Assembly (NCBI GenBank): GCA_030530145.1
Contig: JAUMVN010000001.1
Location: forward strand, 1 to 64,000
Length of the DNA stretch: 64,000 bases
Direction: 5' to 3'
Source: Coriobacteriia bacterium
Lineage (GTDB): Bacteria; Actinomycetota; Coriobacteriia; Coriobacteriales; Atopobiaceae
Made by a program: the position numbers and the translations under genes. Of the stretch, positions 146 to 14,594 are shown one piece after another (the first letter of the stretch is position 1; the number at the start of each line of letters is the position of its first letter). The notes under the pieces were generated by a model. It saw only the letters and a list, made by a program, of their open reading frames with translations, did not search any database and was not told the origin of the DNA.

Positions 146-655
146 ATGGACGGTGAGGTTAATGGCGCGGAGACGACGGGCAAAGAGCAGCAAGGGGTCC
201 AGGGCGACCAGGCGCTCGGCGACGAGCAATCGCAGCGGCAGGCGGAGGAAGTAGGCGGCGGCGAGGGCGCTGGTGCCGACGCGGAGTACCGCGCGGCGCT
301 GGCTGACCGGGACAAGAAGATCGCGGAGCTGGAGGGGCAGATCGCCGAGGCGGCGAAGTCCGTGGAGTCGGCGAACGCTCTGGCCAAGGAAATCGAGGAG
401 ATGAGGGCGGCGACGGATGCCGAGCGCATCGGGTACGAGCTGAAACTCGCGGGTTGCCGCTCCGTGCGCGCGGGGCGCGTGCTGCTAGCGGACCACAAGG
501 GCGACATGGCAGCGCTCAAGAAGGCCGAGCCGTGGCTGTTCGGCGATGCCGTCGGCGGCGGCGCTACCGGACTTGAACCGGCGGGGGCTTCCAAGGGCGA
601 GGGCGATGAGATGAGGCGCTGGTACGAGATCGCGGGCATCGAGGATAAGGAGTAA
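146..655 (+). CDS. Phage capsid scaffolding-like protein
   Basis: This 169-residue protein is acidic and Glu/Ala/Gln-rich, with a predicted coiled coil around residues 45-110 that includes DRDKKIAELEGQIAEAAK. That is the usual look of tailed-phage scaffold proteins (DUF4355-like) encoded directly before the major capsid gene. The ATG at 146 is preferred over an upstream in-frame start because a GGAAGG ribosome site lies about nine bases before it and the earlier start sits inside the terminator. A capsid gene follows five bases after the stop. The call rests on composition, position and the neighbour rather than a catalytic motif. Since the capsid gene is broken, the gene probably has no present function. 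Confidence 0.65.
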   Translation: MDGEVNGAETTGKEQQGVQGDQALGDEQSQRQAEEVGGGEGAGADAEYRAALADRDKKIAELEGQIAEAAKSVESANALAKEIEEMRAATDAERIGYELKLAGCRSVRAGRVLLADHKGDMAALKKAEPWLFGDAVGGGATGLEPAGASKGEGDEMRRWYEIAGIEDKE

Positions 656-660
656 ACGAT

Positions 661-1224
661 ATGGCTAACAACATCGCGGCTATCAAGAACTACACCGCCG
701 TTCTGGACAAGGTTTACCAGAGGGCGTACGTCTCCGGTTGCCTGACCAGCGGCGGGCGCATGGTCAAGGCGGGCAAGAACGCGAAGGAGATCATGATCCC
801 CAAGATCAGCGTCTCTGGCCTGGGCGACTACACGCGTAACGTCGGCTACAAGACCGGCTCCATCACGTTCGACTACGAGACCAAGACGTTCAACTACGAC
901 CGCGGCATCAAGCTGCTGGCCGACGCCATGGACGTCGAGGAGGCGGGCGTGCTGGACTGCTTCGTGGCGGCGGGCTCCGAGCTCATGCGCACGCAGGTGG
1001 CCCCTGAGGCCGACGCGTTCACGTTCGCGGAGATCGCGGGCCATGCCGGAGTCGATACGGAGTCGAAGTCGTACGCCGACGCGGAGGCGGCGGACATCCT
1101 CAAGGACCTGCGCTCGGTGACCAACGAGATGGATGAGCTGGAGAACCTGGACTCGTACATGAGGAAGTATCGCTAGTACGGCATCGTGGAGCTGCTGGAC
1201 AACAAGCTCGACGGCGTGCGGTGA
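661..1224 (+). pseudogene. Major capsid protein, rearranged 5' fragment
   Basis: The frame opens at ATG 661 and reads an N-terminal capsid-like sequence (VYQRAYVSGCLTSGG, then TFNYDRGIKLLADAMDVEE) of the type seen in N4-gp56/HK97-fold siphophage capsids. At about residue 158 it jumps to ELENLDSYMRKYR, then a TAG (1174-1176). Reading continues in frame for 15 more codons (YGIVELLDNKLDGVR) to TGA at 1222, which resembles the usual capsid C-terminus (Tyr-Gly, then Asn-Lys then Gly). The stretch expected in between is absent here, and part of it lies at 2755-2971. So this is the N-terminus fused to the C-terminus with the centre missing, plus a nonsense codon. Not functional as it stands. Confidence 0.75.
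1135..1150 (+). repeat. 16-bp direct repeat, copy 1
   Basis: GAGCTGGAGAACCTGG occurs here and again at 2956-2971, in the same orientation and reading phase (ELENL). It marks the point where the capsid N-terminal piece joins the C-terminal piece. Confidence 0.8.
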
Positions 1225-1285
1225 GAGGATGCCCCTCGTGATGATGCTTCTGAGCGGTTACTGTTGAACCCGCTGCTCGGGAGTC

Positions 1286-2425
1286 TTAGTGTTCCAGCGC
1301 TCTCTTTACGTTCTGCGGAATCTCCCAAGTGCCGTTGCGCTTGCCGCCGACTCTCTGAAGAAGGCCCTTTTCCTGTAGGGAGATGGTCCTCGATTTGACC
1401 GTGCGCTCGGACACGTCCAGACGCGATGCAAGTTCCTTTTGGGTTGCCGACGGATCTCGGGAGATCGCGATGAGCGTGGCTTGTTCCCCCAAAGTGCAAT
1501 CCAAAGTGCAAATATTGCACTTTGGGGTAGTGGTATTTGCACTTCGGATTTCAAGATCGGTCGAGTGCTCTGCGTAGTCCACGTGAAGCTCCCTGTTGAG
1601 CAACGGATGACTCGCCCCGAGCATGACGTTTTCCAAGAAGTTCGTCAGCGGCTCAAGCGTAGGGCGCACGGACGCCTCGTAATTGGTGTAGTTAGCACGC
1701 ACCAGCGCGTTCCTGAAGAACCAGGAGTTGTTCTCAAAGGGCTCATTTGTGACCTCGAAGCCCATAGTCCTAAGGTACTTGATGAGAAGCACGGCCGTCG
1801 ACCTTGTGTTTCCCTCGCAGAAGGGGTGAATCTGCCAAACGCCGGCGATGAACCGCGCGATATGCTCGACCGCTTGCGAGACCGATAGCTCGGCATAGGA
1901 GAAGTCTCTCTCGCGCCCGAAGTCGTAGTCGAGCGTCGGCACGAGGTCGGTGCAGGGGGCGTATGTCACCGTGTCGCCGTTGAGCACCCATTCCTTCTTC
2001 GTGATGTTGTAGTCGCGGATCTTCCCCGCGCCGTCGAAGATTCCCTCAAAGAGGCGGCGGTGGATCCCGATCCAGGTGACAGGCGATAGCGTAAAGGCCT
2101 TTTCGCCGAGCAGCTCGACGGTGCGCTGGGAAACGAGATCGGCCTCTTCAGTTTTACGCTCGATGATGCCTCGGCTGCGCCGTTGCTCGTAATAGCTCTC
2201 AATACGCTCGCGCGCGCCTTGGGTATCGATATCGCCCTCAACGTGGAGCTTGGCTGTATCGATGAGGTACTCGGAGACCTCAAGGCCGTCGACTTGCTGA
2301 AGGCCGATGGCTGTTTGCCACGACTCGGCCTTTTGGGCTCTGTTCGGCTCTCCTTGACGGATGTACTCGTCCAGCTCAAGCTGCCAGAGCTTCTTCTCGG
2401 GGCTCTCGCCGTTGGCTGTGCTCAT
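1286..2425 (-). CDS. Fic family protein with VbhA-like N-terminus and C-terminal winged helix
   Basis: The protein has 379 residues. The Fic motif HPFCEGNTRS lies at residues 200-209 and matches HPFx[D/E]GNxRx, so an AMPylase or related nucleotidyl-transfer activity is expected. Residues about 38-82 (QTAIGLQQVDGLEVSEY and following) resemble a fused VbhA-type antitoxin domain, with Asp-Gly where free VbhA antitoxins have Glu-Gly. Residues about 325-375 form a winged helix (QKELASRLDVSERTVKSR). The ATG at 2425 overlaps the TGA of the upstream hsdM remnant (ATGA), with GGGAG just before it, so translation is probably coupled. Fic genes of this type are common inside type I restriction loci. The frame looks intact although everything around it is broken. 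Confidence 0.8.
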   Translation of the reverse strand: MSTANGESPEKKLWQLELDEYIRQGEPNRAQKAESWQTAIGLQQVDGLEVSEYLIDTAKLHVEGDIDTQGARERIESYYEQRRSRGIIERKTEEADLVSQRTVELLGEKAFTLSPVTWIGIHRRLFEGIFDGAGKIRDYNITKKEWVLNGDTVTYAPCTDLVPTLDYDFGRERDFSYAELSVSQAVEHIARFIAGVWQIHPFCEGNTRSTAVLLIKYLRTMGFEVTNEPFENNSWFFRNALVRANYTNYEASVRPTLEPLTNFLENVMLGASHPLLNRELHVDYAEHSTDLEIRSANTTTPKCNICTLDCTLGEQATLIAISRDPSATQKELASRLDVSERTVKSRTISLQEKGLLQRVGGKRNGTWEIPQNVKRALEH

Positions 2426-2670
2426 TGCGCTCCCTGCCCTTCAAGATCGGCCACGATGACTTCAATCTGGGCGCGCAGCTTGCATTCGCGCTCAACGATA
2501 TTTTTGATGTACTCGACAAGGTCCTCGGAGATGAAGCGGTGGAAGAGAAAACAGGGGATGCATGTCTTGAAGTCCCAGCCGTCCACGGCGCCGCGGATAT
2601 CGTCGACGATTTTCAAGATGGCCTTGTGGAGATTGGCGCGCTTGGTTTCCTTGTTGTTTGTAAATACCAA
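2422..2670 (-). pseudogene. hsdM: Type I restriction methylase HsdM remnant with in-frame internal deletion
   Basis: The 82 codons begin with the classic HsdM N-terminal helical domain (VDDIRGAVDGWDFKTC, then FLFHRFISEDLVEYI). After residue 58 the sequence jumps to CKLRAQIEVIVADLEG, which looks like the extreme C-terminus of HsdM. The roughly 400-residue SAM-binding core with the NPPF motif is gone, yet the frame is kept. The start is TTG at 2670, with GGAAGGGG upstream. The stop overlaps the Fic start by four bases. No HsdS or HsdR is visible. It may survive only as a translated leader for Fic; assignment of the tail to HsdM is an inference. Confidence 0.7.
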
Positions 2671-2754
2671 AAACGGCGCCCCTTCCTTTAATTGAGGTCA
2701 AATTAAACGCAGACCTGAGCACGTTTACCACGCTGCTCTAGTTTAATCCGTTGG

Positions 2755-3021
2755 ATGGGCATTAAGTCGCATTGGAGTGCCGAGCGCCTGGCGGACAGCT
2801 TCAGCCCGGTGAACCCTAACCTGCTTTCCGGCGAGTCGGAGCAGTTCGGCTACGCGAAGGCGGCCGACGGCAAGGCGATCAACTGGATGGTTGTGGAGAA
2901 GTCGACCGTGATCAAGTTCGACAAGCACGTGGCGTCGCGCGTCTTTAGCCCGAACGAGCTGGAGAACCTGGGTGCCTTGCTAATGGGAACTATCCGGGCT
3001 GCACTTTGTCGTCATTCTTAA
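2755..3021 (+). pseudogene. Major capsid protein, displaced internal fragment
   Basis: Reading through ATG 2755 gives capsid-like sequence from about FSPVNPNLLSGESEQ to KFDKHVASRVFSPNELENL, including the conserved INWMVVEKSTVIKF strand typical of the late part of phage capsids. After the shared ELENL (the 16-bp repeat at 2956) the frame runs into unrelated residues and stops at 3019. The true C-terminus is found instead at 1151-1224. The frame is open upstream only to 2719 and that part does not look like capsid. No ribosome site is evident. This is the other piece of the capsid gene that starts at 661. Confidence 0.75.
2956..2971 (+). repeat. 16-bp direct repeat, copy 2
   Basis: Second copy of GAGCTGGAGAACCTGG, 1.8 kb from copy 1. 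It marks the 3' edge of recognisable capsid sequence in the displaced fragment. Confidence 0.8.
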
Positions 3022-3022
3022 C

Positions 3023-3486
3023 TTAGAAGTCGAGAGGGGAGAGTATCGCCTTCGCGGTTTGGCAGCACTCAGGTAGCTCGATTCCCTCGGCGTACGGGTT
3101 CTTCTTCACGTACTTCGCCCACAAAGCGAGCATCGCTTGGTCCGCCGCTACCTCGTCGAGGACGAGCTCCCATTGCGCCATCATGGCCGAGCTTTCCCGC
3201 TTATCGCAGGTCGCAGTGATGGCTTTCGACAGTGTGGCCAAATCACATTCGGAACCCTTGGTCCGCCATAGCACGTGAACGTCGTAGAAGTCGCGAGGGC
3301 GGGTGTTCGTCACGCCGCGCGAGACCAGCGTCTCGAGTTGACCTTGTCGCGCCACTCCGACTTGGATAGCCTTTCGAGAAGCCTCTCGAGCAGGTAGTTC
3401 TGCATCATCGCCTGGGCCGGGATGCCGGCCTCCTTGGCGCTGTTCTTGATGCGGGCCTTGAGCTGCATTGCGTTCGCCGTCCTCAT
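3023..3486 (-). pseudogene. AbiEii-type nucleotidyltransferase toxin, internally deleted
   Basis: From ATG 3486 the strand encodes a typical AbiEii N-terminus (MQLKARIKNSAKEAGIPAQA, then MMQNYLLERLLERLSKSEWRDK). It then shifts frame and continues at about 3355 with the C-terminal part (QLETLVSRGVTNTRPRDFYDVHVL). Together about 45 plus 108 residues remain, against roughly 290 in full-length relatives. The lost part contains the nucleotidyltransferase core (the Gly-Gly/Gly-Ser and Asp-x-Asp motifs), so no toxin can be made. The start overlaps the abiEi stop by four bases, the normal AbiE operon arrangement. Confidence 0.8.
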
Positions 3487-4067
3487 AGGAGCACCTCCAG
3501 GTAGTTCCTTATCTTCCTCTCTGTGTGGAGCTTTTTCGCGTAGCGCATGAGCTTTGCCGGATCGCGGTCCGCCCTCCTGGTATAGGCCTGCATGGCCGGG
3601 GTCACGAGCTGCGCATCAATTACTCTCTGGCCGCGTACGATGTCGCAGAGTGTGCGCTCCAGATCGTAGGCGCGCACCGAGTTACCGTTGGGGGTCTCCA
3701 GCGTGCAAAGGCCCAGGTCCAGCAAGTCGTCGGCGCAGGTGCGGCACTTAATGCCCGCTTCGCGCGCACCTGCTGCGTTGTACGCCCTGGGAAACGTCAT
3801 CGTGAGTGAAAAAGGCGGCCGGTCGGACATGCCGTGTAAAAACAGCGCCGTGTCGTCGGAGAATACCCCACGCGCAAAGCGGTGCTGCGCCACGAGGTAG
3901 GGGTCCTCCCAAACGTCCGGCAGCGCGTAGAGGCCACGGTCGATTTGCACAAGGCTGCCCGCTGCCACGGCTTCTGCGAGCTTGCGTCGTGGGATTCCGG
4001 CTTTGGTCGCGCATGAGGAGGTGACATATCCGTTGTTCTGTGACGCTAGTTCAAGTACTGCGTCCAT
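3483..4067 (-). CDS. AbiEi-type antitoxin of type IV toxin-antitoxin system
   Basis: The 194-residue protein has an N-terminal winged helix (NNGYVTSSCATKAGIPRRKL) that in this family binds operator DNA, followed by the AbiEi C-terminal antitoxin domain (RGLYALPDVWEDPYLVAQHR, then TPNGNSVRAYDLERTLCDIV). The ATG at 4067 is chosen over one ten codons upstream because AGAGGTG sits at ideal spacing before it. In intact systems AbiEi represses its operon and neutralises AbiEii. Here the partner toxin is destroyed, so this is an orphan antitoxin that could still act as a repressor or an anti-addiction factor. The frame appears intact over the usual length of about 200 residues. Confidence 0.85.
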   Translation of the reverse strand: MDAVLELASQNNGYVTSSCATKAGIPRRKLAEAVAAGSLVQIDRGLYALPDVWEDPYLVAQHRFARGVFSDDTALFLHGMSDRPPFSLTMTFPRAYNAAGAREAGIKCRTCADDLLDLGLCTLETPNGNSVRAYDLERTLCDIVRGQRVIDAQLVTPAMQAYTRRADRDPAKLMRYAKKLHTERKIRNYLEVLL

Positions 4068-4227
4068 GGCTTCACCTCTTCTTTCTATTCCGTACATCTA
4101 CGCTTAAGATTATCTCAAATTCAGCCTCAAGGTACAGCGGAACATTTGCTTTGTGGAGTTGCATTTGGATTTTCTGTGTGGCGTAGCTGCCTCGTCAAAG
4201 GCAAAGGAAGAGCAGCCTGAATCAACT

Positions 4228-4326
4228 ATGTGCGGTGTAAGGGATGTCATAGGCCATGAGCGCTACGATGCACTGCTGGCCGCGGAGTCAGCTGACACTA
4301 CTCCCGACTCGGAGCTGTTTGAATGA
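4228..4326 (+). pseudogene. Antitoxin C-terminal remnant upstream of RelE-type toxin
   Basis: The frame is open from 4108 to TGA at 4324-4326. Only its last part (GHERYDALLAAESADTTPDS ending in ELFE) resembles the C-terminal toxin-binding tail of a small antitoxin. The first ATG is at 4228 and gives 32 residues with no DNA-binding domain and no clear ribosome site. The stop overlaps the toxin ATG (ATGA), as in intact modules. The upstream part reads as unrelated sequence, which suggests 5' truncation. Bases 4098-4227 hold nothing else recognisable. Confidence 0.45.
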
Positions 4327-4640
4327 GCGCCGAGAGGTTCAAGGTCGTATTTGCGTGCTTGGCCGCCGAGAAGGAATACCGTTCGCTAGACGGATCGACG
4401 CGCGTCATGGTCGACAAGGGCCTCTTGCGCCTCGCGCAGCGTGCAGACGAGATCGGCAAGGCTCTTTCGGGCGCCCTGGCGGGCTGTAAGGAGCTGAGGT
4501 TCCGAGCTGACGGCATCAGGGTGATTTACCGCATTGTCGATGGCCGCGTCGAGGTCGTTCAGGTTCTTGCCATCGTTTCACGGGACAAGGGCAGGGTGTT
4601 TGACATCCCCTCAAAGCGCAACTCCGAGATCGACCGATAA
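4323..4640 (+). CDS. RelE/ParE-superfamily toxin
   Basis: The 105-residue basic protein has the RelE-like layout: an N-terminal strand and helices, then the strand series ELRFRADGIRVIYRIVDGRV-EVVQVLAIVSRDKG, where RelE-fold toxins carry their Arg/Tyr-rich active surface. Family members are usually ribosome-dependent mRNA interferases, or gyrase poisons in the ParE branch. The exact activity cannot be told here. The ATG overlaps the stop of an antitoxin remnant by four bases, so expression would be coupled to it. With no full antitoxin nearby the toxin is probably weak, silent, or neutralised in trans. Confidence 0.75.
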   Translation: MSAERFKVVFACLAAEKEYRSLDGSTRVMVDKGLLRLAQRADEIGKALSGALAGCKELRFRADGIRVIYRIVDGRVEVVQVLAIVSRDKGRVFDIPSKRNSEIDR

Positions 4641-5229: not shown

Positions 5230-5304
5230 GGGCGATTGGCTCAGGGGTAGAGCACTTCCTTCACACGGAAGGGGTCGCTGGTTCGAATCCAGCATCGCCC
5301 ACCA
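5230..5304 (+). tRNA. tRNA-Val (anticodon CAC)
   Basis: A complete cloverleaf: acceptor arms 5230-5236 and 5294-5300, anticodon loop TTCACAC on a five-pair stem, T-loop GTTCGAATC, and an encoded CCA (5302-5304). Five bases separate it from the next tRNA, so both are co-transcribed. Confidence 0.95.
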
Positions 5305-5309
5305 TATTC

Positions 5310-5385
5310 GGGGAATTAGCTCAGTTGGGAGAGCGCGTGACTGGCAGTCACGAGGTCAGGGGTTCGAACCCCCTATTCTCCACCA
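5310..5385 (+). tRNA. tRNA-Ala (anticodon GGC)
   Basis: Acceptor arm GGGGAAT pairs with ATTCTCC (one G-U). The anticodon stem GTGA/TCAC encloses the loop CTGGCAG with anticodon GGC. The T-arm is GGGGTTCGAACCCC and the CCA is encoded. Together with tRNA-Val it borders the decayed prophage region, a typical integration neighbourhood, although no attachment repeat was found. Confidence 0.95.
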
Positions 5386-13847: not shown

Positions 13848-14594
13848 GTGGCTGCCGAGGACACCCAGAAGAAACCCAAGGGCAAGCTCCGCGCCTTCGC
13901 GGGCAACACCTACGACGACTACTACGACGCCGCGATGTCCGACTTCCCGTGGACCGCGCGCGTGCTCATGAACATCGTCGTCTACGCCTGCTACGCCTTC
14001 ACCAAGCTCGTGTGGCCCTGGAAGATCGAGGCCGCCGAGCTCCTCACCGAGGACAAGCGCGGGCGCGTGATCATCCAGAACCACGAGTCCATGGTCGACC
14101 CCGTGATCATGGTCGTCGTGCTCTGGCGCGCGGGCATCCACATGCGCATCGTCTACAAGAGCGAGTTCGACCGGATCGGGATCGCGCGCTGGCTCTTCTC
14201 GCGCGTCGGAGGCTTCCCGGTCAACCGCGGCGCCACCGACATGAAGGTGGTCCGTCGCGCCCGCGCGGCCCTGCAGCGCGGCGAGTGCCTGCTCATCTAC
14301 CCCGAGGGCACCCGCGTCAAGGAGGACGCCAAGGCCGAGGTCCACGGCGGCTACGCCCTGATGGCCCAGCTCGCCAAGGCGCCCGTGCAGCCCACCGCGC
14401 TCGTCGGCGCGCGCCGTCTGCGCTTCCGCAGCCGCGTCGTCGTGCGCGCAGGGGCGCCCATCGAGTGGTCCGACCTCGAGTCGACCAAGCGCAAGGAGCA
14501 GGTGGCCGAGATGGAGCGCCGCGGCATGGAGGCGGTCTACGCCCTGCGCGACGAGCTGCGCGCGGCCTACCCCGAGCTCGAGGCCGAGGAGTAG
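13848..14594 (+). CDS. plsC: 1-acyl-sn-glycerol-3-phosphate acyltransferase
   Basis: The 248-residue membrane-associated enzyme makes phosphatidic acid from lysophosphatidic acid. The catalytic HX4D motif is NHESMVD (His79, Asp84), the substrate block is FPVNRG, and the third motif is YPEGTR (151-156). One membrane helix lies near residues 37-55. It starts with GTG directly after the cmk stop, with AAAGGA upstream. It works with PlsY and GpsA encoded a few genes downstream to build the glycerophospholipid backbone. Confidence 0.9.
   Translation: MAAEDTQKKPKGKLRAFAGNTYDDYYDAAMSDFPWTARVLMNIVVYACYAFTKLVWPWKIEAAELLTEDKRGRVIIQNHESMVDPVIMVVVLWRAGIHMRIVYKSEFDRIGIARWLFSRVGGFPVNRGATDMKVVRRARAALQRGECLLIYPEGTRVKEDAKAEVHGGYALMAQLAKAPVQPTALVGARRLRFRSRVVVRAGAPIEWSDLESTKRKEQVAEMERRGMEAVYALRDELRAAYPELEAEE

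Follow-up and report, generated by a model that had tools for sequence, protein, structure and literature searches.

The window, the whole 64,000-nt stretch of DNA that was analyzed, starts with the first base of contig C54 (261 kb) in a draft assembly of 57 contigs and 2.47 Mb. This contig end carries the head module of a prophage, consisting of a scaffold-like gene followed by a capsid gene, and pieces of the latter are interspersed with bacterial defense genes (Table 1). A counterpart of the scaffold-like gene also sits before intact capsid genes in relatives, and the intact capsid homologues come from Coriobacteria such as Olsenella, Collinsella, and Atopobiaceae. Two tRNA genes, tRNA-Val (5230–5304) and tRNA-Ala (5310–5385), are located near the phage remnant, and dense ordinary chromosome extends from ~5.2 kb onward. 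No att repeat or integrase remnant was seen near the phage remnant, where the contig ends at base 1. In searches that lacked a positive control, neither a protein encoded ahead of the capsid gene nor a phage tail-region protein turned up elsewhere in the genome. Phage and plasmid collections gave matches to tRNA and hsdM and weak ones to the capsid, and no others.

Table 1. Features at the start of the window and the matches by which they were identified.
Feature	Position	Strand	Match or remark
Scaffold-like gene of phage head module	146–655	+	Open, apparently full length; phrog_31118, E 4.6e-38; weak Phage_scaffold, PF06810
Capsid N-terminal part, residues 1–~157	661–1131	+	phrog_422 major head protein, E 1.5e-39
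N–C deletion junction	1132–1150	+	GAGCTGGAGAACCTGG (1135–1150), repeat copy 1
Capsid C-terminal part, in-frame fusion to N-terminus	1151–1218	+	Residues 258–292
fic, intact, 379 aa	1286–2425	-	PF02661, E 5.9e-11; PADLOC PDC-S72, E 1.3e-119
hsdM remnant, 82 codons	2422–2670	-	Aligned with the full-length HsdM of L096 and L095
Displaced capsid central fragment, residues ~213–263	2818–2971	+	Ends in repeat copy 2 (2956–2971)
abiEii remnant	3023–3486	-	Alignment to L092, L093, L094, and L097; PADLOC AbiEii
abiEi, apparently intact	3483–4097	-	PF13338; PADLOC AbiEi, E 9.1e-67

The identities of the capsid fragments, and the deletions described below, rest on alignment. As a mapping reference, the full-length 294-amino acid capsid of relative L046 was searched against the window's own 2.47-Mb assembly. 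Residues 1–161 of this protein matched window positions 661–1143, residues 258–292 matched 1132–1236, and residues 213–268 matched 2818–2985. The assembly had no match to it beyond these three places and thus no other capsid copy, and residues ~162–212 are absent. Comparison at the DNA level with dozens of relatives gave the same three-piece mapping. The N-terminal part has 67–78% amino acid identity to the best intact capsids, and the C-terminal part has up to 94% nucleotide identity to intact C-termini. In G038:C131, the relative that best matches the center, positions 14320–14462 match window 2829–2971 and positions 14443–14530 match window 1131–1218. These matches overlap by 20 nt (14443–14462), and therefore the center and C-terminus are contiguous in the intact gene. 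Their order in the window is reversed compared to relatives, and fic and the truncated hsdM separate them by 1.6 kb. The flanking sequences (1219–1285, 2671–2817, and 2972–3050) gave nothing convincing against the relatives' loci. One candidate for sharing the N–C join, L052, matches to residue 170, and was rejected because its translation after MDEAEV is unrelated.

The original prediction of an order N-terminus, C-terminus, insert, center is borne out by alignment to intact full-length capsids, which have the 1151–1218 sequence at their C-terminus and a center that matches 2818–2971. The predicted extents were somewhat too generous. A center at 2755–2971 is correct for 2818–2971 (only ~51 residues, starting near 2818), but 2755–2817 has no capsid match. 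Likewise, a C-terminus at 1135–1224 stands up to ~1218, but beyond ~1219, for the last six or so codons of a usual capsid gene, homology is lost, and an in-frame TAG occurs at 1174–1176. All three pieces align with the PHROG 422 major head protein (residues 1–161, 213–263, and 258–292). The match to the phrog_422 profile is confined to pieces (positions 1–158 and 225–269 of 297), to which alignment adds a C-terminal piece. In contrast to PHROG 422 members, the gene here is split, is missing residues 162–212, has a stop in its C-terminal part, and has its center and C-terminal part in reverse order.

As had been predicted, an exact 16-nt direct repeat (GAGCTGGAGAACCTGG) occurs at 1135–1150 and 2956–2971, with the copies 1821 bp apart. 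A repeat this long was seen in 0.3% of first-order Markov shuffles (3.1 kb). The 16 nt are common to both pieces because both descend from the same capsid codons (SPDELENL, or the product of their N–C fusion), and, as judged from the relatives, in which they are ordinary capsid coding sequence, they are not a dedicated recombination site. In intact capsid genes, the segment missing here is bounded by two similar sites (MDE.. at residue ~158 and SPDELE at residue ~257). In L046 these are ATGGACGAGCTGGAGGTG at the residue ~158 site and CCCGACGAGCTGGAGACG at the C-terminal site, with ~13 nt in common; in other relatives ~6 nt are common to the two sites. The capsid middle would have been lost by an in-frame deletion between these short matching sites near residues 158 and 257, probably by slippage or illegitimate recombination at short homology. 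Such a deletion would yield exactly NEMDELENLDSYM, in frame, and the N–C fusion would have gained its stop codon later. As an ordinary deletion between short direct repeats, the N–C join needs neither a second copy nor a special site. The claim that a recombination step or two phage copies is needed thus holds for the displaced center, which calls for a second copy or re-insertion, and not for the N–C join. The case for slippage at short repeats is strongest for the capsid, since few bases match at the joins of hsdM and abiEii.

The sequence between the capsid pieces had been termed a Fic/hsdM insert. Both genes do lie there, but the term is loose, as hsdM and abiEii are deletion remnants and the region is a decay patch, not one insertion. 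The fic gene keeps the HPFCEGNTR motif and encodes a C-terminal winged HTH, and phage sequence comes directly after it. The hsdM remnant consists of the first ~55 codons joined in frame to the last ~30, with ~430 codons gone, and this in-frame fusion could, going by its sequence, be translated as a small protein. The arrangement resembles that of type I restriction loci in which fic and hsdM are neighbors (PADLOC PDC-S72-like Fic), in that fic follows hsdM with an ATGA overlap, but differs from them in that hsdM is reduced by internal deletion and no hsdS or hsdR lies beside it. Similarly, an abiEi-abiEii pair is present as in AbiE systems, but only abiEi is intact. In abiEii, N- and C-terminal parts are joined at ~3338–3340, with ~385 bp gone compared to relatives and the frame lost. 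The fic and abiEi genes may still be expressed. With three genes having internal deletions in the patch at 661–3486, decay is local, since coding density is high elsewhere in the window (selected ORFs make up 89% of its length) and complete domains are present in most genes sampled outside the patch. Two further features were observed among these genes. The 3' part of fic (1487–1553) contains nested inverted repeats, with arms at 1487–1500/1514–1527 and 1495–1514/1534–1553. Beside the abiE genes, a 105-amino acid open frame (4323–4640) has the look of a RelE-type toxin by eye, and has no Pfam match at E 1e-4.

We consider it likely that what remains at this locus is part of a decayed prophage, adjoining an eroded defense patch, with the capsid middle deleted and the downstream center derived most simply from a second copy. 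The capsid has an internal deletion, a stop codon, and a truncation, and dense bacterial genes follow, as expected of a cryptic prophage. Cryptic or grounded prophages undergoing decay have been reviewed (PMC6379469). As in such prophages, the head module here is partial and pseudogenized and is located at a chromosomal locus, with other phage genes not found; the separation of a capsid fragment past two eroded defense genes is an uncommon geometry. The locus is a clear example of a prophage and adjacent defense genes eroding through internal deletions, with the capsid deletion lying between short matching sites.

The displaced center would have to derive from a second copy of the capsid gene or from a linked excision followed by a single re-insertion. 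The center (residues ~213–263), 1.6 kb downstream, would most simply be what is left of a second, same-family prophage after erosion around the defense genes. A second copy is plausible because two or three such prophages are present in several of the relatives. The correlation between N-terminal and central distances is -0.48 in the window versus a median of 0.70, and none of 34 intact capsids is lower, as two capsid sources would predict; this pattern is suggestive and not robust, with a bootstrap range of -0.64 to 0.18 and low scores for short-type capsids as well. A linked rearrangement of a single copy, in which recombination at the short repeat excised or copied out the center together with the repeat and placed it downstream of fic by re-insertion (or template switching), seems to us a less probable origin, though one with some substance. 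It would keep the reading of decay and change only where the displaced fragment came from. The C-terminal part opens with one copy of the repeat, and the displaced fragment stops at the final base of the other; a breakpoint lies at each end of the 16 nt. Independent breaks would give such an ending with a chance of ~2% by our arithmetic (20 of ~885 nt), a coincidence that hints at linked events. The C-terminal part also has a rare, distinctive codon choice in common with G038, to which both it and the center are close, and the assembly has no other capsid copy. Against such a rearrangement, the repeat is complete in both places, whereas simple excision would not leave two copies; residues 162–212 are missing; and no reciprocal junction was seen, the sequences on either side of the center having no convincing match in the relatives' loci. 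If the events were linked, one recombination event would have moved part of the capsid gene past the defense cassette.

That pieces of two phages were joined artificially at the end of a draft contig, in assembly or binning, is improbable. It is true that the first base of the window is also that of its contig, in a draft of 57 contigs, and that the remaining phage was not found in the assembly. However, assembler words are usually longer than 3–16 nt, and the joins, which are of this length, fall below the usual word size. In addition, two more independent deletions lie deeper in the contig, and the hsdM join is in frame. The setting nonetheless carries a caution: active rearrangement should not be assumed whenever a gene fragment is out of place at the end of a draft contig. 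A plain cassette insertion with a 16-bp target duplication was rejected, because it would leave the N-terminus and center before the insert and the C-terminus after it, and because residues 162–212 would remain. It is very unlikely that the capsid repeat of a resident prophage was a true recombination hotspot that captured defense cassettes (fic with hsdM, and abiE), killing the phage while the bacterium kept the genes. Still more remote is an active switch, in which recombination at the 16-nt repeats would cut out the intervening 1.8 kb. Exact direct repeats do flank fic, and an excised circle would rejoin center and C-terminus. Yet excision would restore no capsid, given the absent residues and the TAG at 1174, and the repeat is ordinary capsid coding sequence in relatives. 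The genes examined within the first 5 kb included no dedicated recombinase, and among the listed matches in 140 genomes of the family none spans the arrangement. An active switch or invertible element was rejected on these grounds, and the capsid locus, a pseudogene derived from the PHROG 422 family, looks like a case of ordinary decay through deletions at short repeats and not like a new kind of genetic switch.

Related capsids were observed in short (~294 amino acids) and long (~338–357 amino acids) forms (loci L009, L036, L049, L002, and others). The long form has an extra stretch of ~45–60 residues with a consensus-like TYELT.DT.V.SGKTYYT, and the displaced fragment belongs to the short form.
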